Below are positions 29,965 to 57,543 of a stretch of 64,000 bases of DNA, one piece after another. Numbering within the stretch: the first letter of the stretch is position 1; every line of letters starts with the position of its first letter. The translations under genes were made by a program, and so were the position numbers. Below the pieces are notes generated by a model that saw nothing but the letters and a program-made list of their open reading frames with translations, was not told the origin of the DNA and searched no databases. This stretch comes from a virus, in the IMG/VR virus record IMGVR_UViG_3300027771_000011, positions 1 through 64,000 of that record, one strand, 5' to 3'.

Positions 29965-30402
29965 TTGGATTACGAAGTCCTATTAGCACCTACTGAGATA
30001 GTTGAAGACCTGTGGCCACAAGTAGTGCATCACATTGATTCAGCACTCAAACATTCCAATGGAGAGTATCTCTCCAGTGACATTTTAGACCTCATTATTA
30101 ATCGCCAGATACATCTCTGGTGCGTAGTCGATGGCAAAGACATTGTTGCTGCCTACACAACTCAGTTGAGGATTTACCCTCAGTTAAAAACCCTACTCGT
30201 TCTTACCATTGGAGGCTCCGGTCTATTCAAGTGGGGAAGGCTGGTAGAAAACTCATTATACCAGTTTGCTAAATTGCAAAACTGTTCCAGCCTAGAGGTT
30301 TACGGACGAAAAGGATGGGGTAGATTGTTAGCTAGGCAGGCTAATTTTAAACAACAGTACATCGTTCTCACTAAGGAGATACCGCGTGAAGATCCACACT
30401 AG
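29965..30402 (+). CDS. GNAT-like internal virion protein
   Basis: A 145-residue protein with the strand-helix pattern of an acetyltransferase fold (IHLWCVVDGKDIVAAYTTQ, then WGRLVENSLYQFAKLQNC). T7 gp13 is a GNAT-like internal virion protein in the same genomic position, just before the ejection proteins; the analogy is by fold and place. The clear acetyl-CoA loop is not obvious. The only in-frame start is TTG 29965, with no strong ribosome site, as a stop codon lies just upstream. It overlaps the next gene by 17 bases. Confidence 0.55.
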   Translation: MDYEVLLAPTEIVEDLWPQVVHHIDSALKHSNGEYLSSDILDLIINRQIHLWCVVDGKDIVAAYTTQLRIYPQLKTLLVLTIGGSGLFKWGRLVENSLYQFAKLQNCSSLEVYGRKGWGRLLARQANFKQQYIVLTKEIPREDPH

Positions 30403-31045: not shown

Positions 31046-31563
31046 TGCTAAATAGAGACAAGGATGAAGGTGGAACAGGTAATCCTGTTCATGATGCGTA
31101 CACAAAAGGTATTACCTACGGAAGTGACCGTAACGTAGCTTCGGCTTCCCCTACCACTACAACGAACTCTTTTGGTATTGACTCAGGTGATAAAGAGTAC
31201 GCATCAAAGACTCGAGCTGCGATTACTAGAGAGCAGTGGGAAGACTATAAGGCACGTTTCCAACCTTACGAGGATCGCCTTGCTGCCATCTACAAAAATG
31301 GTGGATTGCTAGAAGGTGAGGCTGAAAAAATCCCAGAAACCGTTAATCAATCGTTTAGCACAATGCGTGGTATTGCAGATAGAAATCTTTCTCGTTATGG
31401 AATTACCCCTACTGCAGATCAAGCAGCCAGTCGTGACCGATCATCTAGCTTAGATCAGGTGTTAGCTCAGGTAGATGCTCAAAATAATTTAATGGCAACA
31501 GCTGATCAAAGGAAAGACAAGATCATGACTGGCGGCATAGACACTATGAATAAGGGAGGCTAA
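31045..31563 (+). CDS. Internal virion/ejection protein, paralog of the preceding gene
   Basis: A 172-residue protein containing EQWEDYKARFQPYEDRLAA (about 61-79), the same motif as its upstream neighbour. A helical, polar remainder follows (GIADRNLSRYGITPTADQAAS, split by short linkers). It lacks membrane segments. Tandem duplication followed by divergence is likely. It is probably co-ejected with its partner into the host at infection. Function within the ejectosome is unknown. Confidence 0.6.
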   Translation: MLNRDKDEGGTGNPVHDAYTKGITYGSDRNVASASPTTTTNSFGIDSGDKEYASKTRAAITREQWEDYKARFQPYEDRLAAIYKNGGLLEGEAEKIPETVNQSFSTMRGIADRNLSRYGITPTADQAASRDRSSSLDQVLAQVDAQNNLMATADQRKDKIMTGGIDTMNKGG

Positions 31564-31567
31564 GCAC

Positions 31568-31912
31568 ATGGCTTATGGATTAATTGGAACAGGTCGTTCT
31601 TTATCAGGTAGTGCTCAAGCTGGATTGGGTCAGGCTGCTAAGTTAGAGGCTTCAAGAAATATGGCAGGGGATCAGCTAGCACAAGCTGCCTCTGGTCAGA
31701 GAAAAGCGTTGATGGGAACTGGTGCGGGTCTTGGTGCTCAGTATGGCTTAACAGCAGCAGCAGCGGCACAGACAGCAGCAGCGGCAGGTGCAACTGGTGC
31801 AGCAGCAGGCGGATTAACAGCTGGTGGTCTAGCGGCAACAGGCGCAGCAGCTGGGCCATGGGGCGCACTTATCGGTGCAGGTATTGGTTTGTTACTTGGC
31901 GAATTATTATAA
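31568..31912 (+). CDS. Ala/Gly-rich hydrophobic protein, possible ejection-channel subunit
   Basis: A 114-residue protein made mostly of Ala and Gly. Its C-terminal half is hydrophobic (AAAAGATGAAAGGLTAGGL) and ends in a glycine-zipper-like stretch (LIGAGIGLLLGELL). Such sequences insert in membranes. Placed between two ejection proteins, it is a good candidate for the part that lines the channel across the host envelope, as T7 gp14 does. The assignment is inferred from composition and position. Confidence 0.5.
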   Translation: MAYGLIGTGRSLSGSAQAGLGQAAKLEASRNMAGDQLAQAASGQRKALMGTGAGLGAQYGLTAAAAAQTAAAAGATGAAAGGLTAGGLAATGAAAGPWGALIGAGIGLLLGELL

Positions 31913-31924
31913 GAGGCAGTACTC

Positions 31925-34216
31925 ATGGCTATATCTGGACAAGGCTTAGCAAGCGGTTTTTCTGGCGGCTTCAAGATGATGGACGATTACTATAATCGCC
32001 AAGAGACACAGCAACTCAATCGGGAAACCGCAGACCGAACAAAGACTGTTTATGATCAGGGTCAGAAAAAGATCAGGATTGAAGCAGCCATAAAGGGCGC
32101 AGCTATGGATATACAAGCAGGCAGGATGCCCTCTCAACAATGGGTAGATACATTACAGAACGATCTAGCTTATGACCTGTATCAAAACTTAGATCCTGAG
32201 TATCGACAGTCTGTAGATAACATTTTAAACCAGACGAATCCTGTGTCTTCTCCTGAGTTTGTTGCAGATGCCAACATTGCCTTTAAAGATTACCTTAATC
32301 AGAACAATACTCAGACAGAATTTACTACTTTCGGAAGAGAGATTGAGACTGAAAGTATGGGTGGCAGTTTTCAAAGTGAGGCTGCTCAGAAATTAGTAGA
32401 TGTTGGATCGTACAGGGGTAAACCTCAAACAATAAAAGGTAAGCGAATTCTTAACAAAGAGTTAGTTGGAAGTATGTATGCCATGGGTGGTGAAACAATA
32501 GGTGGTGATATTGAAGTCACCTATGAGGATATGGATGGAAAGATAAAGACCTATATCGCCCCAATGACTGGTGGGCAAGGAACGTCTGGTGATGGGGACA
32601 ATGGCGTAGGTCAGGATGTCGGCAAATTAATGCAAAACCTCAAGGGTCGAATGATGCTTGCAGATGGCCTGAGTCCATTAATGAAATCTCTCAGTGGCCT
32701 AATGGTAAGTCAAGGCATTGACATTCCAATTAATTCTATAGACAAGGAAAGGCTTAGTAGCTATCAAAATCAAGCTACGAGCTTCATGACCATGGCTAGG
32801 GAAAATGCAAAAGACATGTTCCCCAAGGCTTCAGAATCTGACCAGATGTTCATAGCGATGGCTGCAGGAAAAGGTCAAGACCTCTCTATGCTTAACCTGC
32901 CTGATGGTTCAAAGCCTAATGCACAAGCAGTTGCTGCTTATAAATCTAATATGGCTAAGGCCCAAGGCTTATTCGCTAAGATAGATGTCATTCATAAAAA
33001 ATACAGCTTGGGTGATTTCCAGAACTCAGCTGTTGAACGTGGTGTTCAAGCTAAAATTGGTGAACCTTTTGTACCTTTGAATGAAAGAGTAAAACAGGCG
33101 GCTCAAGGTAACAACGGGGGACAAACTAATGACACTCCAAGTGGGGGTATTCAGCCAGAAAGACTTGATGTAACTGACGATGATACAACTGGCGTTGCGC
33201 CACAAAAGGCTGCATTAAACGCAGCTGTCTCCACAGTAGCCTCTGGTAAAGGCATCAATCCTGCGGCAACTAGAAGAGAGGATGGGTTAGGGATTGATCC
33301 TAATCGGTATCCTTCAGGCAAGGTTGAGCTGCCAATGCTTAACTCAGAGACAGGTAAGCCCTTGTTAGCGGGTTCTGCCAACGACACCAGACGTACTGTT
33401 AGGGACATGAATCAAATCATTGATATATCAGAAAGTGGAAACCTAGGCACATGGCTGGGTGAAAGCTTTGAAAATCAAAAGCAAGCCCAAAATATCTTGG
33501 ACACTGCTAACAAGGATGAATACCTAAGTAAGGAGAATGCGGCAGACATTACCGCGTTTAACCAGCTGTTATCTGACAGTCAAATCCCTATGGATAATCC
33601 TAAGTCTATAAATTATGCAGGCTATGTGCAGGGACTACAGAGTGATCGCCAGAAGAAGGTAGATGGCGCTATCAATTACACCAAGGAGGCTGTCGAAGAT
33701 TCAAGAATTGACCGAGAGATGGTTGACATGAGAGCAGCGCTTAATGATCCCAACATGATGGCGATGATTAGAAAAGAAGTCTCTCGTGATCCGAATGCAC
33801 ATCTTGATCAGGTTGAAAATCTTCTCTCTAGCATACAAGCATTGCCTAAAACCAATAAGACCTATGAGCAATATGAGGCTGTGTACAACTACTGGGAAGC
33901 AATTGGTGGCGCACAACGAATGGCTCCAGCTGTTGCACCATCTGGTGACGGGTTGTTTGATAAATGGGTACAAGGCGTTAAATCCATGATGGGTCAAGCT
34001 CCACCGTCTGTATATGACACGATGATAGCTGATGGATTAATGGATCAAATCAATATGGTTATTGGGCTGGGTGAAATGGGTAAGTTGAAAAAATATGTTA
34101 AGGAGAATGGTGATGAGGCAGTCAAACAAATTTATTCAGCTGCAATATCAAGAGGCTTGATGAAGCCCGAGCTTAAAAGACTTGAATCCGCACTTAAAAC
34201 AATGACGCAACAGTAA
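31925..34216 (+). CDS. Large internal virion/ejection protein
   Basis: A 763-residue, mainly helical, polar protein. It starts with GLASGFSGGFKMMDDYYNRQE, has a Gln/Asn-rich middle (about 60-250), a Pro/Gly-rich linker (about 385-430), and helical repeats to the end (QIYSAAISRGLMKPELKRLE). Length, composition and position before the giant protein match the second-largest ejection proteins of podoviruses, the T7 gp15 type. No catalytic motif is seen. Probably part of the trans-envelope conduit. Confidence 0.68.
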   Translation: MAISGQGLASGFSGGFKMMDDYYNRQETQQLNRETADRTKTVYDQGQKKIRIEAAIKGAAMDIQAGRMPSQQWVDTLQNDLAYDLYQNLDPEYRQSVDNILNQTNPVSSPEFVADANIAFKDYLNQNNTQTEFTTFGREIETESMGGSFQSEAAQKLVDVGSYRGKPQTIKGKRILNKELVGSMYAMGGETIGGDIEVTYEDMDGKIKTYIAPMTGGQGTSGDGDNGVGQDVGKLMQNLKGRMMLADGLSPLMKSLSGLMVSQGIDIPINSIDKERLSSYQNQATSFMTMARENAKDMFPKASESDQMFIAMAAGKGQDLSMLNLPDGSKPNAQAVAAYKSNMAKAQGLFAKIDVIHKKYSLGDFQNSAVERGVQAKIGEPFVPLNERVKQAAQGNNGGQTNDTPSGGIQPERLDVTDDDTTGVAPQKAALNAAVSTVASGKGINPAATRREDGLGIDPNRYPSGKVELPMLNSETGKPLLAGSANDTRRTVRDMNQIIDISESGNLGTWLGESFENQKQAQNILDTANKDEYLSKENAADITAFNQLLSDSQIPMDNPKSINYAGYVQGLQSDRQKKVDGAINYTKEAVEDSRIDREMVDMRAALNDPNMMAMIRKEVSRDPNAHLDQVENLLSSIQALPKTNKTYEQYEAVYNYWEAIGGAQRMAPAVAPSGDGLFDKWVQGVKSMMGQAPPSVYDTMIADGLMDQINMVIGLGEMGKLKKYVKENGDEAVKQIYSAAISRGLMKPELKRLESALKTMTQQ

Positions 34217-34229
34217 GGTAGAAATAAAT

Positions 34230-37200
34230 ATGTCTTCATTATACTTATCCCAGATGCGCCAGAATCCACAGTATCAGAATATTCCTGTTGACCAGTTAGC
34301 CCGTATGGTTTACGACCAAGATGCAGAGCTTCAGGACATATCGTTTGAACAATTCATGCCTATATTTAATGACACAGGTGAAGTGGCTCAGGCCGCACCA
34401 GCTGCACAGCAGATGAACCCAGCTCCTGCTGAAGAGATGGGATATGGCCAGATTGGTTTAGATAGCATTGACGCTGCACAAAGTGGATTCCTTAACGCTT
34501 CTGCTGGTTTAGCTGAAGGTGTGGGTGGTATTTACAAGTGGGCTACTGGCGAAGAGTCAGAGACGGCAGGTGATATTGCGGGGTACTTGAGAGACGCAGG
34601 TGAAGATCAGATACAACAGATGTCTGAGTCAGGTCGAAACCAGATGCAGAACTTTGGTGTTGAATACAGTAGTGAAGACGGCCCTAGTATGAGAGAGGGT
34701 TCCACACTTGTTGGCGGATTGTTGAATATCGCTAGTGGTGTTGGCTCATCTATACCTTACTTAGTTCCGGGTGGATTAGGGGCCAAGGTTCTAAGCCAGA
34801 GTGGTCGAGCGGTAGGTGGAACAATCATTCCAAGTTTAGCTAGAAAGCAAGCAATGAACCTTCCAGCTGGCAGGATTCCTCAATCTCTGTCTATGGCTGC
34901 TGTTGGCGGTACTGGTCTAGGTGGTGAGACAAAGAATCAAGCGTATCAAAAAGCATACAACTCTCCCGCTGAAGAGTTAAATAAAACACCAGCTTATCAA
35001 GCAGCTTACTGGGAAATTGCAGATACCTACAAAGCGCAAGGTACTAAGGTATCTCATGCTCAGATAGAAGAGATGGCTCGTACTGCTGTGGCTGAGGCGG
35101 CTGGTGATGACGCATTCAAAGATGGCTTCCAGCTCGGTGCAGTGAGCATGGGTGCGCTTGGCCCCATGTTCTTGAACAATGTCTTAGGACGCGTTAAAGG
35201 CGGCTTCATAAAGAGAGCTGCCTCTGGTGCTTCTATTGAGGGTACTCAAGAGTTAGTAGAGTCTGGTGGTCAGGCTTATCTTTCTAACTTAGCAGTGAAT
35301 GAGAATGCAAACAGTTCGATACAGCCAATGGATAACGTGGTCAGTGAAGGTCTTACTGGCGCTTTGATCGGTGCAGGAACTGGTGGCTCAATGTCCCTAG
35401 CTGGTGGTTTTGGATCTAAGGCGGTTGGCATCACTAAAGAAAAAGACATGCCCGGATATTTTAGGGAGCAAGAGAGGCTTCGTAAAGAGGGAATCGTTGC
35501 AGAGAAAGAACAAGCTGCCATGGATGCAGAGTCAGTTGAACCTGCAGTAGAGGAAGGTGTTGAGCTTGTTGAAGATACAGAGACTCCTACTGGTGCAGCA
35601 GAGACTCCTACTGAAACTCTGGGTGAAGCACTAGCCGATGCTGAAGAGCAGGCAGCTTTACCTGCAGAAGAGTCAGCTGATTCTCCAGATAGGCCAGAGT
35701 CTTCTGAAGTCGATCCTGTTGAGGAGACCACTGTTGAAGAATCTCCTGAAAAGGCTAACTACAGAGCTGATTTGCAGATAGCTTTAGACATAGCATTAGC
35801 TCAGTCAAAGAATCGCAAGCTTACTCCTGAAGCGCGTCAGGCTGCTTCTGATCGTATTGCTGGTATTCAAGATGAGATAAATAAATTAGATGAGACGCTA
35901 GCATCAACAGAACTTGATCTTGAAATAGAGACTCCTACGCCAGTAACTCCTGCATCAAACCCAGCTTTAACAAAGCGGATACTTGAGTGGTCTAAAGTCC
36001 AGCCAGATAAAGCCAGTGACAGATATGATGAGCAGCGTGTGTACAAAGACGCAATCATTCGTGAGCTAAAGTCTTTAATGAAAATGGAAGTAGGTTCTGA
36101 TCAAGCTTTCCGTAAAGAAGAAAGCATTAGGATGATGGAAGAGAAGTTCGATGCTCTAGCACCAACCCCATTGAATGAAGTACCTCGTTGGCAGCAAGCG
36201 TTAGAAGAAGAGGACGCTGTGACTGAAGCTCAGTTGCAAGAGTATGGACAGATGGAAGCTGGGACTGTTGATTCATCGACTGAGGTTCAAGATGACGTCA
36301 CTGGTGACAACCTATACGGTGTGTTTGCTAATCAAGAGACTAACCCTTTTGCATCTATAGATTTGTTCGGCAGATTGCAGCCTATAAAAGAGGATGGCAT
36401 TGCTATTGATCTTAAGGGTGTTGTGCGCGACAACATGAATAGTCTGCGTGCCAATGGTACTCCTGATAATAAGAATCTAGATCGTAAAACTGTCAACAAC
36501 ATTTTGACTAAAGACGCTGAGCGCATTGAGGCTTTGACTAAAACCTCTGCCATTAATATGGTAGTCAGAAGCCAATACAAAAAGATAAATAAGGAACTAG
36601 GTAAGGCTTCAGCTGACTATTACATTGAATCGTTAGGCCGAGGCATGGGTTTGTTTTCAAATCCAACGCCTACTAAGTTAGCGATGTACGATGAGTACGT
36701 TGAAGGACTTAACGATAACGTAGTGCCTTTGACCTACGAGGTATGGGAGTCAACGATACTTCAAAAGGGAAAGGCTCCGAGCTTAACGGCAAAAAAGCCT
36801 AGTCCTCAACCGGTTGAAGAGCCAGTTGAGGCATCCGAATCGGTATCTGCTGAAGTAGCGCCAATACAGAAAACAGCAGATGACTTTCAGGATGATGGAA
36901 CCTATTACAGAGTTGTTGTTGGAGACACATCTTTCCAAGACATAGTTGATAGTGGAGAAGTTAGGACTAATGCGTCTTCAAAGAAGCCAAGAAAGGCAGA
37001 TGGAAAAATTGACCTCTCATCTCGTCCAACGAAATGGCCTTCGTTCAGCAAAGATTCTGCGTCAATGGATTACGCTGGTAAGAATGAAGACCATTACATT
37101 GTGGTTACAAACGACCCATCTATACAGCCATCTAAGCAGGGTAGGCATGGCAAGGGAACCACACAGTTCCCTACTGATGCCAATGGCAATCCAATGGAAT

Positions 37201-40200
37201 CTCTTTCTGGTGATGCTATCTCTGTATACAAGCACACGGGTAATGGTAATTACGAGTTGGTGTATAACCGTGGTCAGGTTGTGTCTAAGCCAGACAGCGA
37301 TCCTACTCCTACTAAGAAAGCCATCCCTGCGTCACAGGTAAAAACTGAGGCTAAAGGAACCACTGTTGCTGATAAAAAATCCAGTGGGAATCAAGCTGTA
37401 CTAGAAGAGAATGAAGAATCGGTCATTGATGAACTACCCGTAGATGTTCCTGTGTTAGGTAAGCAGGTAGTTGAAGTGCTAATATCTGACCTTACTCTCA
37501 GTGAAGATGTGCCTCAATTTAAAGATGGGGCAGACAGCGAAGGAGTTGTTGACCCTCTTGGTGGCACGTTTGATCGGACAGGTGTTGCACCTATTCAGAT
37601 CTGGTTGCGTGAAGATGGCCGCAAGGAAGTTATCAGTGGAAGGCATCGTCTTGACCTAGCCAAACGCAGCGGCGAGACAACCATACCTGCACAGTATCAC
37701 CTAGAGTCAGAAGGGTTTGGTGCAGCCGAAGCCAGTATACTAGATGCTTTATTAAACATACGCGAAGGACAGGGGAAGGTAAAAGATTATGTCGGATTCA
37801 TCCAAGCAAGAAACCTCACCGAAGAAGAAGCTGACGCAGAAGGAATTCTGGCAAGACCAACGGGAAAAAGGGCATACACGATTGCAAGTCAAGGAAGTCC
37901 TGCGCTTGTTGCCGCCCATCGTGCCGACCAAATAGGAGACAACGCTGCATCCCTGATTTCCCAAGCCGCACCTAATAACGAACCACTTCAAGCTGTTGGA
38001 CTCAAAGCCTTACAAGAAGGCAAGTCTATTACTGTGTCTGTCAATATTGTAAAAGCAGTCAACAGTATGACCAGAGATACTGCTCAAGAGAGTGGGGATC
38101 TGTTTGGGTTTGATGACTCAGCTATGAAAGAGGCTGAGAATCTAGCGCGTAAAGCTGGACAGAAGCAAGCTGAAATACAACGCACGTTGACAGCAGTTAC
38201 AGGTGCAGCAAAGAATCCAGAGTTAGCTGCGGCTGAAGGGGTTGACGTACAAGATCCTGAAGCTGTTCAAGCTAGGGTTGCCGAACTAAAAGACCAGAAG
38301 CGTGAATGGCAAAACTGGCACACCAACCCTGCACTCGTTGCAGAACTCACAGGTAATGAGGTAGCTGCGCCAGTAGTAGAAGTTACAGCTGATGAAGTAT
38401 CTGCGCCCGCAGTAGAAGCTACAGACAGTGAAGTAACTGAACCAATAGTAGCAGAAGCTACAGATGATGAAGTAGCTGCGCCAGCCCTTGAACTATCTAA
38501 TCAAACCGAAGAAGAACTTGCTACCAAAGCAGGGCGAGACCTTGATGCGGGTGAAACTAAAGAACAGGTTGACCGAGAGGTTGACGGTTTCAGTCTTGAT
38601 GGTGGCGTAAGTTTAACCACTCAGGCAGACCCAGCACAGAACCCACAATCTAATGATTTATTTGAAGGTAATCCAGATGTTAACGAAGTTGAAGTTGAAG
38701 TTGAAAGTACTCCTAGTACAGATGAAGTTGTCAATCCAAGTGTGGCTGATCCGGTTGCAGATACAACTGAAGTTGTTGCTGAAGAAAATACGGACGTAGA
38801 AAATGATGTACTGAATGATGTTGTACCAGCAGATAGAGGTGCAGTACCAGAAGGTGAACAGGAGTCGATTACTCTCTACGGATTAGAGGCGGATGGATCA
38901 ACTTCAAATAATGATCCAACAGATCTTATCAATGACGTCAGAGTTCTACAGTTTGTAACAAGAGACGATGGTTTAAAGCTTGCCCTCTATGTGGGTGATA
39001 AAGACACAAGTGATACTGACGCTGTTGTTTATAAGTCAATGGATAAAGCAGAGGCTGCATCTAAAGATTTAGAGAGTAAAGGGTTAGGACTATACCGTCC
39101 GACTATGTATAAGAAACGCTTTGCCCTCAACGCATTGATTGTGGCTAAGAATCAGTCAACCGATGTGCCCATGGTTTACAGCAACAAAGATTCATCTGAT
39201 CAAGCAAAGAATCGCATGAAGTCTAAAGAAGCTTATGACATTCAAGAGTCAGGAGCAGGTAAGTTCTACATTGTTACAACCCGAGACTCTATGGATAAGG
39301 AGGGTAAGAAGGATAATGAAGCCTCTAATTATGATTCAATAACCGAAGTTAGAAATAACCTTCAAGAAGACATCGAAGAGAATGTCCCGTCATATGTCCT
39401 ATCTCAAACGACTAATGAAAAATTCCCTAACCAGCCTCAGCTATTCATGCTCGAAGGTAAAACTGACAACTTATTAAAGTATGTCCAAGGCAATCAGATT
39501 GATGACTTGAGTAATGTTGCAGAAGAATTGCTGGATGTTAAGTCTAAAGAAAAATCAAAGACATTAATTGCTGCTGTTGAATTTGCAACTGGCCGTATTG
39601 ATACTATCAATGCTTCACTTAAAAAGAAGGAGCAGCAGAACAAGATAGTTCTTGAAGACGGTAAGAGCGAACTAAAAGCTGTGTCTATTATGTTTAGGTC
39701 AGTGAATAAGTTTGAATCTAAAGTTAATGAGGATGGATCTTTAACCTTGTTTGGAAACAATAAGGACTTAGAGCGGTTCTTGTCAAAAAATAAACTTACT
39801 GAAGGTCAGCAACCTGTGTATGGCACCCTTAATGAGGGAGAATTTTCTGTAAGCGAAGAGCAATCAGGGACAGTCATTGGCATTAAAGTTCCCAAGACAA
39901 CTGCAACAAAGTTAAAAGGCAAGCTGGAAAACAAAGCGCTTTATTTTGTTGATGGTGAAGTGGAAGGTGCAGCCTACGTTGTCAATCCAAGTAAACCTCT
40001 GCTTCAGAAAAAAGATCTTACTGTTAATTTAGAGGAAGGCCGAGTAGTTATTCCTGAAAAGGAGGGAAGGAGTGAGGACGAAATTCAAGAGGACATTGAG
40101 ATTGGAAGAGCTAATGCAATGGAGAGCAAGGCTAGTGACCCAGTAGTTGATCGTCAATCTTATGAATCTGTGAGGGATGAATTAGCAGGGATGCGAGATG

Positions 40201-43200
40201 CCGAAACTCAAGAGATTTCAAATTTCTTAGATGGAACTGCGACTTCAGACGTTGGAGGTGCAAGCACTAAAAACGCCACAGAATTCTTCGATAGCATTGG
40301 TGATGGAGACTATGGTTTTGTCTCTCAAGATGAAGTCACTAACTCAGCTGAAAAGTCTGCACAAAAAGACAGTGATGAGAAAGTAGAAGCAGATCCTGCT
40401 GATGCTGATCTGATAGAAGAATTACTAGGAGACTTAAGAGAGGCTACGGGAATTATTGACGACCCTAAAACAACTGCGGCTGACCGAAAGACAACTGAAG
40501 GTCTTGCCAGAAAGATTGAAGAAGACTTAGTGGCATTAAACGCTGGCGATCAATTCATTAAAATCTCAGCAAAAGGATCAGTAACCGAGGCGAAGAATCA
40601 ACCGGTAGAAAAGCCAAAGAAGAAAAAGGTAGCCAATCCAAAGAAGAAAACAACTGAGGACAATAGTGAATCTCCTTTTGATATGTTTAATACCCTTCTC
40701 AATGACTACCCCCCACTCTATGTATCTAGGCGTCAGCTAAAAGGCATGACGGGTATGTCCGTTGAGGATGTCCAAGCAGTCATTGATAAGTTTGAAGCTA
40801 AGTACAACGGTATACCTGACATTAAGTATATGGTCGCTGATATTCCTCTTGATGGAGGACAGGCTTCTTTAAGTGGTATGGCTGGTGGTGTTCCTACAGG
40901 AAGCTTTGATGCCAAGAATAAGCTAGTCACTCTTAATTCTGCTGGTCTTAATAACGTTGCTGAGGTTGAGTCTGTTCTTCGTCATGAGATTCTTGCTCAC
41001 TATGGATTATCTGTGTTCCCTACTCTTGAAGAGAGGATGGACATCTTAACTAAGGTCTCTAAAGCTGAAGGACAGAATGAAGAGCTAACTAAAATATTCA
41101 AAGAGGTTCGCAAAAGCTACAGCGCCAGAACAGATGCTTGGAAGGAGCGAGGGGCAACTGACGAAAGCATTGAGGCTATGGTGGCAGAAGAAGTCTTTGC
41201 TCGAGTCGCTGAAGAAAGAGACCAGTCTGTTTTCGGAGAGGCTTGGGATGCGATTGTTTCATACGTTATGAAAGCACTGCGCAAGGTAGGCTTCTATGAT
41301 CACTACACTAAGTCAGATGTTCGTAGGACGTTGCAGAGTTTTGGTAAACAGTTTACTCAGGCTGATGTAGAGACTTCGCTTCAAGTAAATGCGCAAGTTC
41401 AAGAGGTTAAGTTCAGCATTCCACCTGAAGACGGTGTGGCTGGAGTAAATAGTTCTTTAGACAAGCTGTTGGCTAAGGTTAATGCCCGAAAAGAGAAAGA
41501 CGATAAAGCTAAAGAAGCGAAGTCAGCCAAGATTGGTGCTCAACAAATATTTGATCAAAGAGCGAGTCTTGAAACTGAGGCTAAACCATCAGCAAGGCCC
41601 ACTGAAAGATTGGAAAAGGATCTTAATCTTGCTGAAGGTAGGGCACCAGCAGTAGAAGTTATGCCTGATCTTATCCCAGATCGGGCGAAGGTCAGTGATC
41701 ATTCATCAGTTTATTCTGACTCATTGGATGCAGGTCAGAGGATGGGTGTTGATCTTGCGATGACGACCATGATGGAGAAAGGATCTCGTGGGTTCTTGTT
41801 GGCAGATGGTACTGGCTTTGGTAAGACTCGACAGATCTTAGCTATGGCTGATCAGTTTAAAAAGGCTACTGGACAGAAGGTTCTGATACTTACAGAGAAT
41901 GAGCCGACCCTCAAGAAGAACTTTGCTGATGATGCTGCATCGATGGGCATAGATATGAAGCAGTTCAAGACTGGAACATACAATAGCTTTAAGGATGGTG
42001 GTCAACGTAACGGAATAAAGCCTGAGTTTGATCAGGAGTGGGGCATGGTTATATTTGATGAGGCTCATAACCTAAAGAACTACAACACGCTTCAAGCTAA
42101 AGCAGCTCGTAGGCTGTCAAAATCCAAGGTAGTTTACGCTACAGCTACGCCGATGGATCGCCCGTCAGCTGGTGCTTACATGTGGGCTGATGTCATGGGT
42201 CAGAGTTATAAAGAAGCTCTTGATAACCTAGGAATGAAGCTAGTCAATGGCCCAAAAGTAAAGGTCGATGGTAAGTATGTAGAGGGCAATAAGGTTGTAG
42301 AACTTAAGAAGGGCATCTCTCCGAAGATGGCTATTGAGAGAGTAGCTATAATGAGAAACTCAGCCATCAAGTCAGGTCGAATGATCAAGCGTTACTACCC
42401 ATTCTTTGGCACGACCAGTGAAATAAAAGTTGAGATGGAACAGCAATCACGGCTCGATCAAGATGACATAGATAACTACTGGCAGGGAGAAATTAATAGT
42501 GGGTCAGGTAGCCCTAAAAACTTAAGAGGTCAGCGCATACTTGAGCTGGTCAAGTGGGAAGAACATCTTAAGATTGATGCGGTAATGGACAAGTTAAAAG
42601 AGGATTTGTCTAAAGGCATGCAAGTGGTTGTTGCAGCTGAGACAGTCTCTGAAGATCTAATAGTTAAAGGTCTTGAAGGCGGCAGAGTGTCAGGATTTAT
42701 TAGCTTAATTGAAGGTCGATTGGATGCAGAGAATATTGATTACGTTTCAATTAAAGGTAAGACCACCCCTGCTCAGAGAGCAAAGTCTGTAGAAGAATTC
42801 CAAAGCGGTAATATTCCTTTGATGGTTATGACTACTCAAGCTGGAGGCACAGGAATTAACCTAGATGATACTGTCGGTGATAAGCCTCGTTCATTAATCA
42901 TGGTGACTAAGAACTGGTCTGGTTCAAAAGTGATGCAGTTGATTGGCCGAGTATCTAGAAAAACCACACAGTCTCCGTCAGTAGTGAATGTGGTTTCATT
43001 GGAGGGTGGTTTAGCTGATGCACACAAGTCAGCTGTAGTTTCCCGTAAGCTAAAAACATTACTCAGCTCTAGTGGTGAGCCATCTATACTGGAAGATCTA
43101 GACGCCACTGAGTGGAATGATGTCCGTGATTCAAATAAGAACTACGTTGGATCTAAAGATGGAAGTCTGATTGATGACGTTGATTCATCAGAGTCTGAAG

Positions 43201-46200
43201 CAACATCTTCCATTCCCCCTGCTGATGCTCAGCCAGAAGTGGATTCATCTATGGGTGATAACTTCATGGCAGTGCTAAGAAAGCATGGCACTAGACCTAC
43301 TCCAGACGAGACGGCAAGTGGTAAGAAGTTTATAAACCTCAAGAGTAGTGTGGCCAATAAGGAAACGATCCAAGCTACGCTGGCAAGAATTCTTCCTAAG
43401 CAAAAAAATGGTGATGATAGTAAATTCTCTAAGCCAATGAAGGTTAAGGGTACGAAGAATGAGTGGTTCTTCTATGTATGGAATACAGATCAAGCTAAAC
43501 AGATAGCTGCTGACTTAGAGAAACGAGGAGTGAACTACTCTCGACAGTCAGTAAATGAAGTGGCTCGTGGCTTATCAGGAAAAAGTGTTAAGGACATTGA
43601 AGGTTGGGTAGGTAAGTCGATCTTGGATAAGATGAATAGTCTTGGTCATAAGGTTGAAGTCGTTCAGTCAGTCGCTGACATTCCACCCATGCCATTAGCC
43701 TATGATCCAATGGTTAAGATGACGGTTATAGATCAAGTTAATGCTGTGTTTGATGAGGTGCGTGAGGTTAAAGATCTAGTATCTGGTAAGGATGCCGTGG
43801 AGGTTGCTGAAGCTGTTGCAGCATCCGCTCCTAACGCCTTACATAGGGACATTGCTGCAAAGGTAGCTGTTCAGCTTAGACAGTTAAGGGACTTAGGTTC
43901 AGACGTTGGGTTCCAAGTCCTTCAAGTAGGGGACTCAGCCCCATCTAATGTTAAGTCTACGATCCAAAGTGGTGCTAAAGGATTAACTGTGTCTGCTGAC
44001 CCTCGGCTAGTGGCTGCGGGTAATCTATCTGGAAAGGTTTACATTGTAGGGGACACTGTCAGTAGCAGTAAAAATGGATTGGATTTTGAAACGATCACTC
44101 ACGAGTTGGTTCATCTTTCCACAGCGGCTTCGCATGTGGCTGGCCGAGTTCCGGCAAATAAAGACACTCCTTATGCCAAGTTATTTGATGATATGGAAAG
44201 CCTAATGAAGGTGGTTAGTGCTCATGGTAAGCGTCAGAAAAATAACATAGAGAACCTACCCAAGTTCCAGCAGGATTTACTGAATGGATATAATAATTCT
44301 GCTGAAAGTGGCAGGGAGATCATGGCGTGGGGTCTAACTAATGGGGACTTCCAGACGTATCTAGAATCTATTCCTCTTAATGATAACAAGACAGCGTGGG
44401 ATTCTTTTGTTCAGAGTGTTCGTGAGTTCTTAGGGATTAATCCTAATGATGGCACAGCACTTTCAGAAATGCTAAGGATCTCTAATGAAACATTGTCATT
44501 AGATCTCAATCAGGTATCTGAACTTCTTAACAGTAACATCTCCCCTGATGACGTTTCGGTTAATAAGCCAATGGCTATTGATCCTAATGCGAAAGGAATG
44601 TTCATACCTTCTAGAGGCATATCATATCTTGTTGCTGACAACCTACACTCCAAAGCGGAGACCCGCAGTACATTCAGTCATGAAGTTGTAGGCCACTACG
44701 GTATGCAGCAGATGATGGGTAATGAGTTTGGTTCATTACTTGATACAGTTCAGGACATGAAGGCTAAGGGTGACCCAGAAGTTGTGGCTGCTGCTAAAGT
44801 AGTTGAGACAAGAAGCGGTAACCTAGGGCGTGAGGAAGAAGCTGAAGAAATAATTGCGGTACTGGCTGAAGACTTAGCCTCTAGATCTTTCATGACTAAA
44901 GTGTATGACGCAATTCGTATGTGGATCAAGCGTACATTCTCCAGCAACTATGTAGTGTCCAACAGTAATCTTAGAGACCTGTTGCTTGATGCGCAACGTC
45001 ATGTGTCTAAAGATGTTAGTAATGAATCTGTAGCACCTCAGACTGCGAGTGAGATCCTTTACTCGAAGGTATCCAAGATGGATTTGCCTAAGCAGTTAGA
45101 GGTATACACTGACGCTCTAGAGAATGTTCACGAATCTCTGGGTGGACTAGCTAAGCAGGACTTTATTAACTCAACAAAGGACGGAGCTAGTGCAATACTT
45201 AATCAGAACAAGACTCGTAATTTCCTACAGTACTGGTTAACAAATACTCAGATACACCGCACTTATAAGTCAGCGTTTGATTGGAAAGGTGGTAACCCAC
45301 TTAAACGAATCAATGATTTACTCGGTGAGTTCCGAGTTGATAAGGAGAGGGCGCTTCATGGTTTCGAGAAAGAAGAAAAGATTTGGGACAAGCTCAGTGC
45401 CAAAGAATCTAACTCACTAGCCAGCTTAATGAGGGACTCTACTATTGCTGGCATTCATCCTAATGTTAGTGTTGAAAACAAAGTACATGACTACGTCCGA
45501 GAAGATAAGAAGAAACTTGACAGAAAGAAGCTAAAGGATAAGCCAACAACAACTGACTTGGATGATATTGTTCGTCTGGAAGAGAGCATTAAGTTCATGA
45601 AGGAGGAGCACGCTCGTCTGTCTCGAGAGTGGAATAAGCTTTCGGTTAACGCAAAGACGGTGTACGAAGACACTCGTATCATGTTGAAGAGTCAGTTTGA
45701 GCAAGAGCGAGAAGAGTTACTTAATCGTATAGATAGACAGATTGAAAGTCCTGTTCATCGTGAGTCAGCCAAGAAAGCATTGGAAACCCGAATGGGTGAT
45801 TTGATTACTCGCGGCCCATACTTTCCTTTATCCAGATTTGGAGATCATGTTGTGATTGCTTTTGCTGACATCAATGGTAAGCGAGAGTTTGTTCGAGAGC
45901 AGTTCGAGAGTCGGAGTGAAGCTGAGCGTGCGCTTAAATGGCACAAGAGCAAGTGGGGTGAGAATAATGCTCGTATGACTTATATGGCTGATATGTCTAA
46001 GACCTCTAAGTCTGACGACTTGTTTGCATTCAGAGACAACCTTTTCACTGCACTCGATGACAACCGTGATGAAACTTTAAGTGATGATCGTATGGATGAT
46101 GATGCCAAGGCAGCTATACGAAAATCAACAGAGCTGCTGAAGAATGAGATCAATGATCTTATGCTCAACACGTTACCGTCTAGTTCAATCATGCAGAGGA

Positions 46201-48155
46201 GACGCCATCGTCATGGCACTAAGGGTGCGTCATCTGATATGCGTAGAAGCGTACAGAATGTCATGCTTCAATCAGCTCAGCAGATTTCTAAAATCAAATA
46301 CGCTGATCGTATACGCTCTGAATTGAATGACATCGGTATTGAGAATCGGAAGTTCGCAACCGGTGATCAGTCTGAAGTTAAACAACAGTACGCTGACGTT
46401 GTCAGTGCCACTCATGCTGAAATGTCTAAGCGTTTCGAGTTGACTATGAATCCAACTGGAGCAGCGTGGGCATCTAACGCAGGTCGCTTAGCTTTCTTCC
46501 AGTACTTAGGTTGGTCTCCAGCCGCAGCGATAGTAAACCTCACTCAGGTTCCAGCAATATCAATACCTGTTATCGGTGCGAGATACGGCATGGCTAAAAC
46601 TACGGGTGTGTTCTTGAAAGTCATGACTGATTGGCACATGGGTAAGAGCGAACTATCGACACGAGAAGCGTACAAGTCTTTTGCTAGAGACGGCAACAAG
46701 AATGTCACGAAAGATGAGCAGAACTTTATCAAGGTTCTAATAGACCGAGGGGATATAGACATCACTCGCGTTGGTTCGATTACTGAAGAAGCTCACTCTG
46801 ATCAAAGAACTCCCAGTGTATTTGGCACGAAGATGCAGAAGCTGATGCGCACAGGTGCGTACATGTTCCATGGTGCAGAAATGTCTAACAGAGAGGTGAC
46901 TGGATTAGCTACATATAGACTGATCAAAGATAAGCACCCTGAGCTTTTTGTTGGATCGACCTTTAATAGTAGTGAGAGCATGTCAGAGAATGAGCTGAAA
47001 GTTTATGAAGAAGTTCGTGAACTTATCGGCACGACTCAGTTCCTGTACGAGTCTGAGAACCGCCCTAGAGCTATGCGTGAGAACAACATTATTCGCACCA
47101 TGACTACGTTTAAGATCTATGGACAGCACATCATATACATGTATGCACAGCTGGGCAGAGAAGCTTTGGGAAGAGATAAGTCTCTCTCACCCGAGAAGCG
47201 TAGAGAAGCACAGAAGGCGCTGGCTGGTCTTGTTGCATTCCAGATGCTGGCAGCAGGTGCAACTGGTGTACTACCTATAGCTGTAGCTATATCTATGATG
47301 AGTGCGGCTTACAACATGTTCGCTGATGATGAAGAAGAGATCGTAAGCCCCGAAGCTTCATTCACCCAGTGGATAGATGACATGGTGAAGGGAGCTTTCG
47401 ATGACGATGAAGCAAAGTTTATGAGTGCTTTACTAAGTAAGGGGATAGGTAATGCCTTGGGTGTAGACGTAAGTAGTCGAGTATCTCAAGACACCAATCT
47501 ATTACTTATGATGCCTGACCGCCCGATGTCTAGCGGCAAAGAGTTGTACAAAGAAGCGTTATTAAGTTTAGCTGGCCCCGTCTTTGGTGGGATCGGTGTC
47601 AACGTAGCTAACTTTGCTCAAGATGTTTACGAGGGGAACCCAACTGAGAATCTAAAGTCGGTACTACCTAAAGCCCTCCGTGATATATATAAGTCGGTTG
47701 ATTACTCGCAGAACGGAGTGAAGACGCGCAATGATCTTGATGTAATTGAATCTCTGGACACGAGTGACATTGTCATTCAAGCGATGGGATTTACACCAGA
47801 AGTTGTTTCCTCTACGTACACCCGAGCATTCGCTAGGCTGAACAAGTCGCAGCATATCGCTGGTGTTAGAAGGGATATTTTAGGGGACGTCTATACGGCA
47901 TTGTCCGATGGAGATAAGGGTTCAGTGGAAGAGTCTCTTGCGCAAGTCACGAAGTGGAATGAGTTTGTCATGGAGAAGCTGAAGTCTATTAAAAGTCCTG
48001 CAATGAAAGCTCTGTTCCTGAAAGAGTTGATCACAAGCAAGACTATATCCTCAAGCCTCAAGACAAAGATGATCAGAAAACTTACGGCTACAGAAGGAGT
48101 TGTTCTTCCGAAGAAGCACATGTATTTAATTGATGATTATACATTCGGGACTTAA
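34230..48155 (+). CDS. Giant 4641-residue polyvalent ejection protein (PLxRFG type) with helicase, ParB-like and zincin-like domains
   Basis: One uninterrupted frame of 13.9 kb. About 1-60: N-terminal cap; 60-405: Gly/Ala-rich, partly hydrophobic; 430-520: acidic linker; about 890-1020: possible ADP-ribosyltransferase-like domain (Arg894, then PSFSKD at 937-942); about 1100-1300: ParB-like domain with ISGRHR (1135-1140); 1370-1420: acidic EV-P-VE repeats; about 2200-2300: zincin-like HEILAHYG (His2252, Glu2253, His2257); about 2500-2960: superfamily-2 helicase with GTGFGKT (2527-2533), DEAH (2610-2613), TATP (2638-2641) and QLIGRVSR (2903-2910); HELVH (3291-3295); HEVVGHYG (3484-3491); PYFPLSRFG (3863-3871); hydrophobic patch near 4330-4360. 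Related giant phage proteins are called polyvalent or PLxRFG proteins and are thought to be injected to counter host defences. Position after ejection genes supports that here. Confidence 0.85.
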   Translation: MSSLYLSQMRQNPQYQNIPVDQLARMVYDQDAELQDISFEQFMPIFNDTGEVAQAAPAAQQMNPAPAEEMGYGQIGLDSIDAAQSGFLNASAGLAEGVGGIYKWATGEESETAGDIAGYLRDAGEDQIQQMSESGRNQMQNFGVEYSSEDGPSMREGSTLVGGLLNIASGVGSSIPYLVPGGLGAKVLSQSGRAVGGTIIPSLARKQAMNLPAGRIPQSLSMAAVGGTGLGGETKNQAYQKAYNSPAEELNKTPAYQAAYWEIADTYKAQGTKVSHAQIEEMARTAVAEAAGDDAFKDGFQLGAVSMGALGPMFLNNVLGRVKGGFIKRAASGASIEGTQELVESGGQAYLSNLAVNENANSSIQPMDNVVSEGLTGALIGAGTGGSMSLAGGFGSKAVGITKEKDMPGYFREQERLRKEGIVAEKEQAAMDAESVEPAVEEGVELVEDTETPTGAAETPTETLGEALADAEEQAALPAEESADSPDRPESSEVDPVEETTVEESPEKANYRADLQIALDIALAQSKNRKLTPEARQAASDRIAGIQDEINKLDETLASTELDLEIETPTPVTPASNPALTKRILEWSKVQPDKASDRYDEQRVYKDAIIRELKSLMKMEVGSDQAFRKEESIRMMEEKFDALAPTPLNEVPRWQQALEEEDAVTEAQLQEYGQMEAGTVDSSTEVQDDVTGDNLYGVFANQETNPFASIDLFGRLQPIKEDGIAIDLKGVVRDNMNSLRANGTPDNKNLDRKTVNNILTKDAERIEALTKTSAINMVVRSQYKKINKELGKASADYYIESLGRGMGLFSNPTPTKLAMYDEYVEGLNDNVVPLTYEVWESTILQKGKAPSLTAKKPSPQPVEEPVEASESVSAEVAPIQKTADDFQDDGTYYRVVVGDTSFQDIVDSGEVRTNASSKKPRKADGKIDLSSRPTKWPSFSKDSASMDYAGKNEDHYIVVTNDPSIQPSKQGRHGKGTTQFPTDANGNPMESLSGDAISVYKHTGNGNYELVYNRGQVVSKPDSDPTPTKKAIPASQVKTEAKGTTVADKKSSGNQAVLEENEESVIDELPVDVPVLGKQVVEVLISDLTLSEDVPQFKDGADSEGVVDPLGGTFDRTGVAPIQIWLREDGRKEVISGRHRLDLAKRSGETTIPAQYHLESEGFGAAEASILDALLNIREGQGKVKDYVGFIQARNLTEEEADAEGILARPTGKRAYTIASQGSPALVAAHRADQIGDNAASLISQAAPNNEPLQAVGLKALQEGKSITVSVNIVKAVNSMTRDTAQESGDLFGFDDSAMKEAENLARKAGQKQAEIQRTLTAVTGAAKNPELAAAEGVDVQDPEAVQARVAELKDQKREWQNWHTNPALVAELTGNEVAAPVVEVTADEVSAPAVEATDSEVTEPIVAEATDDEVAAPALELSNQTEEELATKAGRDLDAGETKEQVDREVDGFSLDGGVSLTTQADPAQNPQSNDLFEGNPDVNEVEVEVESTPSTDEVVNPSVADPVADTTEVVAEENTDVENDVLNDVVPADRGAVPEGEQESITLYGLEADGSTSNNDPTDLINDVRVLQFVTRDDGLKLALYVGDKDTSDTDAVVYKSMDKAEAASKDLESKGLGLYRPTMYKKRFALNALIVAKNQSTDVPMVYSNKDSSDQAKNRMKSKEAYDIQESGAGKFYIVTTRDSMDKEGKKDNEASNYDSITEVRNNLQEDIEENVPSYVLSQTTNEKFPNQPQLFMLEGKTDNLLKYVQGNQIDDLSNVAEELLDVKSKEKSKTLIAAVEFATGRIDTINASLKKKEQQNKIVLEDGKSELKAVSIMFRSVNKFESKVNEDGSLTLFGNNKDLERFLSKNKLTEGQQPVYGTLNEGEFSVSEEQSGTVIGIKVPKTTATKLKGKLENKALYFVDGEVEGAAYVVNPSKPLLQKKDLTVNLEEGRVVIPEKEGRSEDEIQEDIEIGRANAMESKASDPVVDRQSYESVRDELAGMRDAETQEISNFLDGTATSDVGGASTKNATEFFDSIGDGDYGFVSQDEVTNSAEKSAQKDSDEKVEADPADADLIEELLGDLREATGIIDDPKTTAADRKTTEGLARKIEEDLVALNAGDQFIKISAKGSVTEAKNQPVEKPKKKKVANPKKKTTEDNSESPFDMFNTLLNDYPPLYVSRRQLKGMTGMSVEDVQAVIDKFEAKYNGIPDIKYMVADIPLDGGQASLSGMAGGVPTGSFDAKNKLVTLNSAGLNNVAEVESVLRHEILAHYGLSVFPTLEERMDILTKVSKAEGQNEELTKIFKEVRKSYSARTDAWKERGATDESIEAMVAEEVFARVAEERDQSVFGEAWDAIVSYVMKALRKVGFYDHYTKSDVRRTLQSFGKQFTQADVETSLQVNAQVQEVKFSIPPEDGVAGVNSSLDKLLAKVNARKEKDDKAKEAKSAKIGAQQIFDQRASLETEAKPSARPTERLEKDLNLAEGRAPAVEVMPDLIPDRAKVSDHSSVYSDSLDAGQRMGVDLAMTTMMEKGSRGFLLADGTGFGKTRQILAMADQFKKATGQKVLILTENEPTLKKNFADDAASMGIDMKQFKTGTYNSFKDGGQRNGIKPEFDQEWGMVIFDEAHNLKNYNTLQAKAARRLSKSKVVYATATPMDRPSAGAYMWADVMGQSYKEALDNLGMKLVNGPKVKVDGKYVEGNKVVELKKGISPKMAIERVAIMRNSAIKSGRMIKRYYPFFGTTSEIKVEMEQQSRLDQDDIDNYWQGEINSGSGSPKNLRGQRILELVKWEEHLKIDAVMDKLKEDLSKGMQVVVAAETVSEDLIVKGLEGGRVSGFISLIEGRLDAENIDYVSIKGKTTPAQRAKSVEEFQSGNIPLMVMTTQAGGTGINLDDTVGDKPRSLIMVTKNWSGSKVMQLIGRVSRKTTQSPSVVNVVSLEGGLADAHKSAVVSRKLKTLLSSSGEPSILEDLDATEWNDVRDSNKNYVGSKDGSLIDDVDSSESEATSSIPPADAQPEVDSSMGDNFMAVLRKHGTRPTPDETASGKKFINLKSSVANKETIQATLARILPKQKNGDDSKFSKPMKVKGTKNEWFFYVWNTDQAKQIAADLEKRGVNYSRQSVNEVARGLSGKSVKDIEGWVGKSILDKMNSLGHKVEVVQSVADIPPMPLAYDPMVKMTVIDQVNAVFDEVREVKDLVSGKDAVEVAEAVAASAPNALHRDIAAKVAVQLRQLRDLGSDVGFQVLQVGDSAPSNVKSTIQSGAKGLTVSADPRLVAAGNLSGKVYIVGDTVSSSKNGLDFETITHELVHLSTAASHVAGRVPANKDTPYAKLFDDMESLMKVVSAHGKRQKNNIENLPKFQQDLLNGYNNSAESGREIMAWGLTNGDFQTYLESIPLNDNKTAWDSFVQSVREFLGINPNDGTALSEMLRISNETLSLDLNQVSELLNSNISPDDVSVNKPMAIDPNAKGMFIPSRGISYLVADNLHSKAETRSTFSHEVVGHYGMQQMMGNEFGSLLDTVQDMKAKGDPEVVAAAKVVETRSGNLGREEEAEEIIAVLAEDLASRSFMTKVYDAIRMWIKRTFSSNYVVSNSNLRDLLLDAQRHVSKDVSNESVAPQTASEILYSKVSKMDLPKQLEVYTDALENVHESLGGLAKQDFINSTKDGASAILNQNKTRNFLQYWLTNTQIHRTYKSAFDWKGGNPLKRINDLLGEFRVDKERALHGFEKEEKIWDKLSAKESNSLASLMRDSTIAGIHPNVSVENKVHDYVREDKKKLDRKKLKDKPTTTDLDDIVRLEESIKFMKEEHARLSREWNKLSVNAKTVYEDTRIMLKSQFEQEREELLNRIDRQIESPVHRESAKKALETRMGDLITRGPYFPLSRFGDHVVIAFADINGKREFVREQFESRSEAERALKWHKSKWGENNARMTYMADMSKTSKSDDLFAFRDNLFTALDDNRDETLSDDRMDDDAKAAIRKSTELLKNEINDLMLNTLPSSSIMQRRRHRHGTKGASSDMRRSVQNVMLQSAQQISKIKYADRIRSELNDIGIENRKFATGDQSEVKQQYADVVSATHAEMSKRFELTMNPTGAAWASNAGRLAFFQYLGWSPAAAIVNLTQVPAISIPVIGARYGMAKTTGVFLKVMTDWHMGKSELSTREAYKSFARDGNKNVTKDEQNFIKVLIDRGDIDITRVGSITEEAHSDQRTPSVFGTKMQKLMRTGAYMFHGAEMSNREVTGLATYRLIKDKHPELFVGSTFNSSESMSENELKVYEEVRELIGTTQFLYESENRPRAMRENNIIRTMTTFKIYGQHIIYMYAQLGREALGRDKSLSPEKRREAQKALAGLVAFQMLAAGATGVLPIAVAISMMSAAYNMFADDEEEIVSPEASFTQWIDDMVKGAFDDDEAKFMSALLSKGIGNALGVDVSSRVSQDTNLLLMMPDRPMSSGKELYKEALLSLAGPVFGGIGVNVANFAQDVYEGNPTENLKSVLPKALRDIYKSVDYSQNGVKTRNDLDVIESLDTSDIVIQAMGFTPEVVSSTYTRAFARLNKSQHIAGVRRDILGDVYTALSDGDKGSVEESLAQVTKWNEFVMEKLKSIKSPAMKALFLKELITSKTISSSLKTKMIRKLTATEGVVLPKKHMYLIDDYTFGT

Positions 48156-50374: not shown

Positions 50375-51568
50375 TCAGGCAGACTTCTTGCTAGGGTTAA
50401 GCGCTTCGATTGATGCACGATTTAATACGTCTAGTGTGGGCGTTGCCTCCTGCCAAACAATATCTTCGTGACCTCTTCCGTAGTTCTCCGTCATCTCTAG
50501 ATTAGCATGACCAGCCAACTGCTGAGGGTACTCTTTAGTTTGCTTCTGAATAAGATATATCCCTAGCGCTCTACCTTGGTGAAATGCTGGCTGTTCATTC
50601 ATTGATAGATCAGGATAAGGGTTAGCTAAGTCTCGTATCCGCTTGAACTCGTCAGACAAATACTTCGGGTACACCTTTGTGTAGTGAACATCATCTTCTC
50701 GTCCTGCGTTGCGGAGCCTCGGCTTCCGGTGAATTAGAAATGGGCTTGCTATGTTATCTCTGCACTGGTTTACAATAGCTCGAAGCTCTGGCGTTATCTC
50801 AATCTTGAGATAGCCCATGTCAGAATATTTCTCGGTCTTCTGCTGAATCACTTCAATAGAAGTGTCAGTCGATTTAGGCATCCGTATATTTAATATGTCA
50901 GCTCTTCGCTGAAGTGTCGTCAGTGCCAAGTTCATCGCACATCGCAACCATAGAGGGCATTCAGGATGGTCATAGATGGCCATCCAACCCTCGAAAGTAT
51001 GACGCTTCATGACACGTTTAGTTTTAACTGGCTTGGTCATATCAACAGGATTAGAATTACCGGTGATGTAACCTTTGGTGAGAGCGTACTGCATCATCAT
51101 CTTTAGGTTTTTACGCGTTGCGTTTCTTGCGTGAGGTGTACCAGAATCCTCATCATCTTCTTCGGGGTCATAGACTAAATCAAACAGCTCGTTTATCTTC
51201 AGGAGTGTAAACTGTTCCAAGGGAAGGTCAGGCATGTATTTAATTACCTTGTTCATCATCGTCTTCCGTTCAGCGATCAACGAGTCAGAGAAGTTGTCTA
51301 TATTTTTCTCGACAACATTAAGATACTTGGCGCACAGATCTCTCAGCTTCATACGAGTGCCGATGATCGACTCTGTTAAGTCAGTGCGTACAATGAGGAT
51401 AGAATTTGCTTGGTTAGCTGCACGAATTGCTTCGCCTCTGTTGGTGCCGAGTGACACATCTTTGCCAGCTGGTGCGTTGACGTAACGATAATAATCTGTC
51501 CCGTTGGAAGAGTTTATTTTCAGATACATTGGAAGTCCCTTAGTCTTACTTGATTGACGTTTCCTCAT
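50375..51568 (-). CDS. int: Tyrosine-recombinase integrase
   Basis: It catalyses site-specific integration and excision at attP. The 397-residue protein has an N-terminal DNA-binding part (1-70), a core-binding helical domain (about 70-185) and a catalytic domain with Arg221 in LQRRADI, Lys244 in QQKTEKY, the box His330-x2-Arg333 in FHQGRALG, His354 in LAGHAN and nucleophile Tyr363 in ENYGRG. All six catalytic positions are present. It starts at ATG 51568 behind AGGAG and overlaps the excisionase gene by 23 bases. It is the last gene of the long leftward operon, as in lambda. Confidence 0.93.
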   Translation of the reverse strand: MRKRQSSKTKGLPMYLKINSSNGTDYYRYVNAPAGKDVSLGTNRGEAIRAANQANSILIVRTDLTESIIGTRMKLRDLCAKYLNVVEKNIDNFSDSLIAERKTMMNKVIKYMPDLPLEQFTLLKINELFDLVYDPEEDDEDSGTPHARNATRKNLKMMMQYALTKGYITGNSNPVDMTKPVKTKRVMKRHTFEGWMAIYDHPECPLWLRCAMNLALTTLQRRADILNIRMPKSTDTSIEVIQQKTEKYSDMGYLKIEITPELRAIVNQCRDNIASPFLIHRKPRLRNAGREDDVHYTKVYPKYLSDEFKRIRDLANPYPDLSMNEQPAFHQGRALGIYLIQKQTKEYPQQLAGHANLEMTENYGRGHEDIVWQEATPTLDVLNRASIEALNPSKKSA

Positions 51569-57536: not shown

Positions 57537-57543
57537 GGGATCC

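Follow-up and report, generated by a model that had tools for sequence, protein, structure and literature searches.

The DNA analysed here, a window of 64,000 nucleotides that forms part of a 73,555-base virus record, carries a run of late genes in the order terminase, portal, capsid, tail, a 548-aa protein and then genes for proteins of 219, 172, 114 and 763 aa. Behind these lies a giant gene, the last and largest of what we take for an ejection operon, much as gp16 closes the T7-type order gp14-gp15-gp16 (PMC8954989). The features that matter for the argument are the following.

26238-27884, + strand: 548-aa virion protein, related to 8jov_A and to JC1 gp61 ("head closure")
30386-31045, + strand: 219-aa protein, phrog_611/8003, the same families as JC1 gp64 (a virion protein by mass spectrometry)
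31045-31563, + strand: 172-aa protein, phrog_596, weak match to a "DNA ejection" family
31568-31912, + strand: 114-aa protein, phrog_594 (a family of unknown function), in the same order in Vibrio phage 1F273_PE002
31925-34216, + strand: 763-aa protein directly 5' of the giant gene, gp15-like by position only
34230-48155, + strand: giant gene, 4641 aa, uninterrupted open reading frame with an ATG start and no internal stop
34230-34409, + strand: N-terminal segment NPQY...QL...F, aa 1-60; similar start in giants L010-L014
34611-35408, + strand: N-terminal Gly/Ala-rich segment, aa 128-393, near the N-terminus in 39 of 87 giants
36840-37286, + strand: module X, aa 871-1019, absent from the sister protein L001
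37428-38423, + strand: ParB/Noc-like module, aa 1067-1398, with conserved SGRHR and NIR motifs and a modelled fold
40752-41345, + strand: zincin 1, aa 2175-2372, H2252 E2253 H2257 ... E2321; profile and conserved ligands
41745-42986, + strand: SNF2-like superfamily-2 helicase/translocase, aa 2506-2919, by Pfam and PHROGs
43782-44498, + strand: zincin 2, aa 3185-3423, H3291 E3292 H3295 ... E3363; homologous to phiKMV gp37 and PDB 9sfn_G
44577-45008, + strand: zincin 3, aa 3450-3593, H3484 E3485 H3489 ... E3540; profile and conserved ligands
45384-47984, + strand: LPD39/PLxRFG C-terminal domain, aa 3719-4585, helical; by Pfam, model and homology to Zobellviridae internal virion protein D
47202-47306, + strand: hydrophobic segment within the C-terminal domain, aa 4325-4359, hydrophobic in 64 of 64 relatives

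The giant gene starts 13 bases beyond the stop of its predecessor, with AAGGT 5' of the ATG. The initial annotation of this DNA had taken it to encode one single polypeptide, and the unbroken frame bears this out. The motifs that had been claimed for it are likewise all present and in the order given, so that along the chain one meets NPQY (residue 12), ISGRHR (1135), HEILAH (2252), GTGFGKT (2527), DEAH (2610), TATP (2638), QLIGRVSR (2903), HELVH (3291), HEVVGH (3484) and PLSRFG (3866), and each of the proposed helicase, ParB-like and zincin-like modules is now backed by profiles, structure or conserved residues. Linkers of acidic, low-complexity sequence run between the modules. Several biochemically unrelated domains (a helicase, a ParB fold, zincins and LPD39) share this one chain, among them three copies of the zincin-like MPTase hub with conserved ligands, and the gene sits among late virion genes; we class the giant among the large polyvalent proteins of phage type, with LPD39/PLxRFG at its end. 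Its number of modules, which had looked elaborate, is nothing exceptional, since polyvalent proteins with one to five zincins had already been described (PMC5512222).

Within the helicase, the Pfam families Helicase_C, SNF2, AAA_34 and ResIII all score above cut-off over residues 2513-2910, the PHROGs "DNA helicase" match covers 2506-2919, and Walker A, DEAH and motif VI are intact. The giant's ParB-like module has no direct Pfam match of its own; 5 of its 12 aligned relatives match Pfam's ParB_N, the model is mostly at pLDDT 72-95 from the SGRHR region onward, and Foldseek aligns that model with solved ParB, Noc and KorB structures over about 210 residues at probability 1.00. The module, then, models as a ParB/Noc-type fold, with its SGRHR and NIR sitting at what we take to be the places of the GERR and ENIQR of ParB.

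The three zincins fall into two families. Zincins 1 and 3 belong to one, marked by HExxxH plus a downstream Glu, in which (among about 70 domains) the His, Glu and His are 97-100% conserved and the last Glu 87-88%. Zincin 2 (HELVH...E3363) belongs to another, whose ligands are 100% conserved in 8 members, phiKMV gp37 included. A phmmer search with zincin 2 finds PDB 9sfn_G, a 1337-aa "internal virion protein" (E about 1e-17), and the same region matches phiKMV gp37, which has the length of 9sfn_G and is the gp16 counterpart of phiKMV (PMC8954989). Relatives of zincin 2 were recovered by tblastn and profiles; a pattern search of the viral contigs gave none. All three domains would presumably act as metallopeptidases.

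Two other stretches of the middle are harder to place. Module X has no relatives in the viral contigs or phages, its PDB matches to a flavivirus protease were weak (E 0.04) and judged to be chance, and its candidacy as an ART was set aside, the pattern being seen by eye only and the confidence of the model being too low. Residues 1545-1940 (window 38862-40049) hold about 400 conserved residues that are common to L001 only and match no family, and a likeness of residues 1781-1909 to factor H-binding protein (PDB match, E 0.012) is probably chance.

The C-terminal domain is where the giant touches the known machinery of DNA ejection. Pfam's LPD39 (PF18858) covers residues 3719-3845 at 37.9 bits against a cut-off of 27 and is found in 64 of the 64 sequences of alignment A2, and PHROGs phrog_10089, "DarB-like antirestriction," matches residues 3725-4595. 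The model of the domain, which is about 830 aa long, is helical (pLDDT 82, pTM 0.74) and has no fold match among the solved structures of the PDB. Among predicted viral proteins (Foldseek against BFVD), it finds other giants and the "internal virion protein D" of Roseobacter phage CRP-4 (E 1.9e-5). That protein, CRP-4 gp39, scores 31.4 bits in hmmsearch, with shuffled, reversed and unrelated giant segments at 4.4 bits or less, and hhalign against a profile built from three internal virion proteins of the Zobellviridae (CRP-4 gp39, CW02 gp40 and P12053L_42) pairs columns 37-827 with 504-1421 (Prob 97.3, E 1.8e-11; reversed control, E 0.2). By these sequence comparisons, the PLxRFG domain is homologous nearly throughout to the stand-alone internal virion protein D of the Zobellviridae. 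The name of the latter appears to come from position and annotation: CRP-4 gp39 hits a PHROG labelled "internal virion protein," and the annotation of one Zobellviridae genome lists internal virion proteins A, B, D and C (PMC9960094). As a relative of the gp16 counterparts of T7, P22 or phiKMV, the domain was rejected, with no PDB fold and scores at control level (no signal above controls for T7, P-SSP7, P22 and phiKMV alike). Because the domain shows neither detectable gp16/gp37 homology nor a match to a solved fold, it is the Zobellviridae protein that by itself carries the case for a role in the ejectosome. In the literature that our search covered, that of journals open without subscription, we found no paper stating a link between LPD39/PLxRFG and internal virion protein D.

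Beside the hydrophobic segment conserved in all 64 relatives, the domain has a second (aa 4085-4119), hydrophobic in 50 of 64, and gp16-like proteins have been reported to have putative membrane helices at their C-termini (PMC8954989). A collinear hhalign alignment of the LPD38 and LPD39 ends (E 4e-4, probability 35; reversed, 0.28) is no more than suggestive of one family, perhaps one ancient domain. Two observations may be recorded here for their own sake. Giants L010-L024, L028 and L029, which carry the ParB module or stand at the equivalent point of the operon, end in LPD38. In the podovirus CW02, gp40 (L116:3130-7371, - strand) is annotated as a "putative tail sheath"; by profile (22.6 bits) and a weak fold match, it belongs with the relatives of internal virion protein D.

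How constant is this architecture? A profile-guided scan of viral contigs gave at least 500 stretches related to the C-terminal domain, and our set of giants holds 87 non-redundant proteins, 72 with the C-terminal domain and 50 of these with a complete start. Those 50 run from 1,841 to 5,041 aa, and 32 of them have the N-terminal Gly/Ala-rich segment. The commonest module is a zincin of the 1/3 family: 61 of the 72 have one, usually 110-340 residues ahead of the C-terminal domain, and ten giants carry it twice. From the N-terminal segment to the C-terminal domain, the span varies between 890 and 3,362 residues across the giants, and among the cargo that Pfam recognises in the twelve giants scanned are helicases (about six), an Eco57I-type methylase (four), pyrophosphatase, cell-wall hydrolases and ddrB-ParB.

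The sister protein L001, 4183 aa long and from an independent contig, is co-linear with the giant and 56-85% identical by segment. It lacks residues 871-1019 (module X) and about 3153-3449 (zincin 2), and the breaks fall at linkers. The ParB module is 45-85% identical to the modules of other giants; the figure is 66-69% for podophages (Vibrio phage 1.183.O and Shewanella phage X14, for example) and 47-68% for additional contigs. The module keeps its invariant motifs across giants that are otherwise different. The remainder of these ParB-sharing giants has no BLAST similarity to ours, apart from one weak zincin-2 match, and those tested mostly end in LPD38, not LPD39. Because the module is similar, the rest of the giants unalignable and the ending mostly LPD38, these sequences are best explained by recombination of a ParB cassette between two types of chassis, LPD38 and LPD39. 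The ends are conserved, the middle is variable, and modules are gained and lost as units.

The company that the giant keeps points in the same direction as its C-terminus, with some corrections to what had been thought of it. Of four internal virion proteins said to lie upstream, the 219-aa product (30386-31045) is upheld by its virion-structural families and the 172-aa product (31045-31563) weakly so by its "DNA ejection" match; the claim fails to find support at 31568-31912, in a family of unknown function, and at 31925-34216, the 763-aa protein with no match in PHROGs, the PDB or 50,697 phage records. The product of 26238-27884, also called an internal virion protein, is more likely a part of the tail or portal vertex, because the related 8jov_A chain is present six times in its entry. 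The late genes of Vibrio phages 1F273_PE002, douglas and D60 and of Burkholderia phage JC1 are arranged in the same way, with a giant at the end. Pseudomonas phage H66 gp60, which stands at the corresponding place and has the common C-terminal domain, bears the annotation "verified by mass spectrometry as part" of the virion. JC1 gp69 (4515 aa, the same operon place, matched by the N-terminal and zincin profiles, with an LPD38 ending) was the second-best virion protein by mass spectrometry score, with 51 unique peptides, and JC1 gp61, gp64, gp67 and gp68 were likewise found in virions (PMC9144972). What these verified relatives share with our giant is the ends and not the whole cargo. The early reading of the giant as an ejection-type protein is supported by the gene order, by the mass spectrometry of H66 gp60 and JC1 gp69, by the zincin in common with phiKMV gp37 and by the C-terminal homology to Zobellviridae internal virion protein D, and we infer that the giant is packed in the virion and injected into the bacterium.

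As for the rest of the phage, the stretches 50375-51568 (- strand), 54365-55905 (- strand) and 57463-60008 (+ strand) encode an integrase, a RecE-like exonuclease, an Erf-like annealing protein, an O-like replication initiator and a primase/helicase. The phage has its own recombination and replication genes and, because the first of these stretches (50375-51568) is the integrase gene, it is temperate. A host search for a relative of the major capsid protein in genome contigs found none. At 10115-14242 lies a 1,375-aa tail protein in which a tail fiber PHROG covers no more than a stretch of 190 residues, the rest being uncharacterised.

Computation gives us directly the architecture, the homologies, the conserved catalytic residues, the gain and loss of modules and the order of the genes. 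What would such a protein be for? With a probability of about 0.78, in our estimate, the giant is a virion-packaged, ejected polyvalent protein, in which an internal-virion-protein chassis carries exchangeable cargo enzymes into the host. It takes the last place in the ejection-protein operon, that of gp16 in T7-type phages. The delivery chassis would be the two ends, that is, the Gly/Ala-rich N-terminal region and the helical LPD39/PLxRFG domain of about 830 aa with its membrane-like segment; the cargo between them would be a ParB/Noc-like DNA-binding module, an SNF2-type DNA translocase and the zincin metallopeptidases. Residues 1-60 are a possible capsid-targeting signal, by analogy with P1 DarB, a head protein whose N-terminal targeting signal lies within 30 residues (PMC9024508). 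After adsorption, the chain would be threaded out via the tail, before or with the DNA, and the C-terminal domain would stay at the inner membrane with the entry channel. The zincins may then cut the chain (self-cleavage by zincins has been proposed for polyvalent proteins; PMC5512222), leaving the ParB module and the helicase free to act on incoming DNA, which they would most plausibly protect or organise against host restriction, as P1 DarB does. The pair might also serve another early function.

Could the giant instead be chiefly an ejection-channel protein, an internal virion protein D whose middle serves as a scaffold or fills space in the head and does little as an enzyme in the host? 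The C-terminal homology, the membership of zincin 2 in a plain ejection protein (phiKMV gp37) and the predominance of zincins among the modules would all suit it, but Walker A, DEAH, motif VI and every zincin metal ligand are intact, the ParB module has held to its invariant motifs in otherwise different giants, and gain and loss as units fits cargo; we consider this account unlikely. More improbable still is that the giant acts in the producing cell in late infection (for assembly, packaging or lysogeny), and that its presence in virions is a matter of trapping, not of delivery: a temperate phage could use a ParB/helicase pair in replication, but the relatives are strong virion components by mass spectrometry, several phages have the gene at the end of the ejection operon, and the homology is to internal virion proteins. 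The idea of chance motif strings in coiled-coil, or of a mis-assembled fusion, has nothing in its favour beyond the character of the linkers and, as far as the helicase, the ParB module, the zincins and the C-terminal domain go, has been refuted, because the motifs come with Pfam and PHROGs matches, conserved zincin residues, a ParB fold and clean controls (reversed giants gave 0 matches for every module profile), with no sign of unrelated coiled-coil, and because the co-linear L001 on its own contig makes an assembly error unlikely.

Beyond the delivery of cargo by this one giant, we would give even odds to a broader proposition, that LPD39/PLxRFG giants in general are versions of internal virion protein D fitted with a cargo bay: an ejection-channel protein, itself conserved, that has turned into a delivery vehicle, with ParB, helicase, methyltransferase, zincin and other cassettes swapped between phages and even between LPD39 and LPD38 chassis. 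This bears on how proteins of 300-500 kDa get into phage heads, are threaded out of them and are used, and if the ends are chassis and the middle cargo, the N- and C-terminal parts become directly testable as packaging and delivery signals. The natural pair of the giant and L001 tells which modules are dispensable, and the link to internal virion proteins would offer a first concrete role for an uncharacterised domain present in those 500 or more phage contig stretches.

Where does the giant stand among known systems? Closest are the LPD39/PLxRFG polyvalent proteins (Iyer et al. 2017; PMC5512222), such as H66 gp60, the PLxRFG protein of Klebsiella phage LASTA and Vibrio phage 1F273_PE002 gp63, which have the same C-terminal domain, a zincin before it in most, a late operon place, giant size and variable enzymes. 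Our giant differs from them in combining a ParB/Noc-like module, an SNF2 helicase, two zincin families and the unmatched module X, whereas several of them carry a methyltransferase or a cell-wall hydrolase as cargo. The DarB-like giants of Bcep22-type phages (JC1 gp69) resemble it in size, operon position, N-terminal segment and zincin but have an LPD38 end without clear sequence homology to its LPD39/PLxRFG end. P1 DarB, a head protein, is also of giant size with an SNF2-type helicase, and PHROGs calls our giant's C-terminus DarB-like; however, DarB has a methyltransferase-helicase pair, and Pfam searches of the giant, run to E 1 on the entire chain and to E 10 on slices of it, found no methyltransferase family, so that the parallel is incomplete and the DarB mechanism not simply transferable. 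phiKMV gp37, a T7-gp16-type ejection protein, is homologous to zincin 2, with the metal residues conserved, whereas for the rest of gp37, for T7 gp16 and for P22 gp16 no homology to the giant could be detected. Zobellviridae internal virion protein D is collinear with the PLxRFG domain over its C-terminal 920 or so residues but, at 1413-1487 aa and without a zincin motif, is far too short for a helicase/ParB cargo. The N4 virion RNA polymerase is likewise a giant ejected multidomain protein, with a zincin-type domain and then a large helical C-terminal region (PMC12633501), and differs in its RNA polymerase domain, of which Pfam and PHROGs scans found none in our giant. Earlier work had already made known polyvalent proteins with zincins, helicases and ParB domains, as well as the presence of giants in virions. 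What is new is this combination of modules, a zincin that the giant has in common with phiKMV gp37, the two modules by which it naturally differs from L001, a ParB cassette that occurs in LPD38 and LPD39 giants alike and the link between LPD39/PLxRFG and internal virion protein D.
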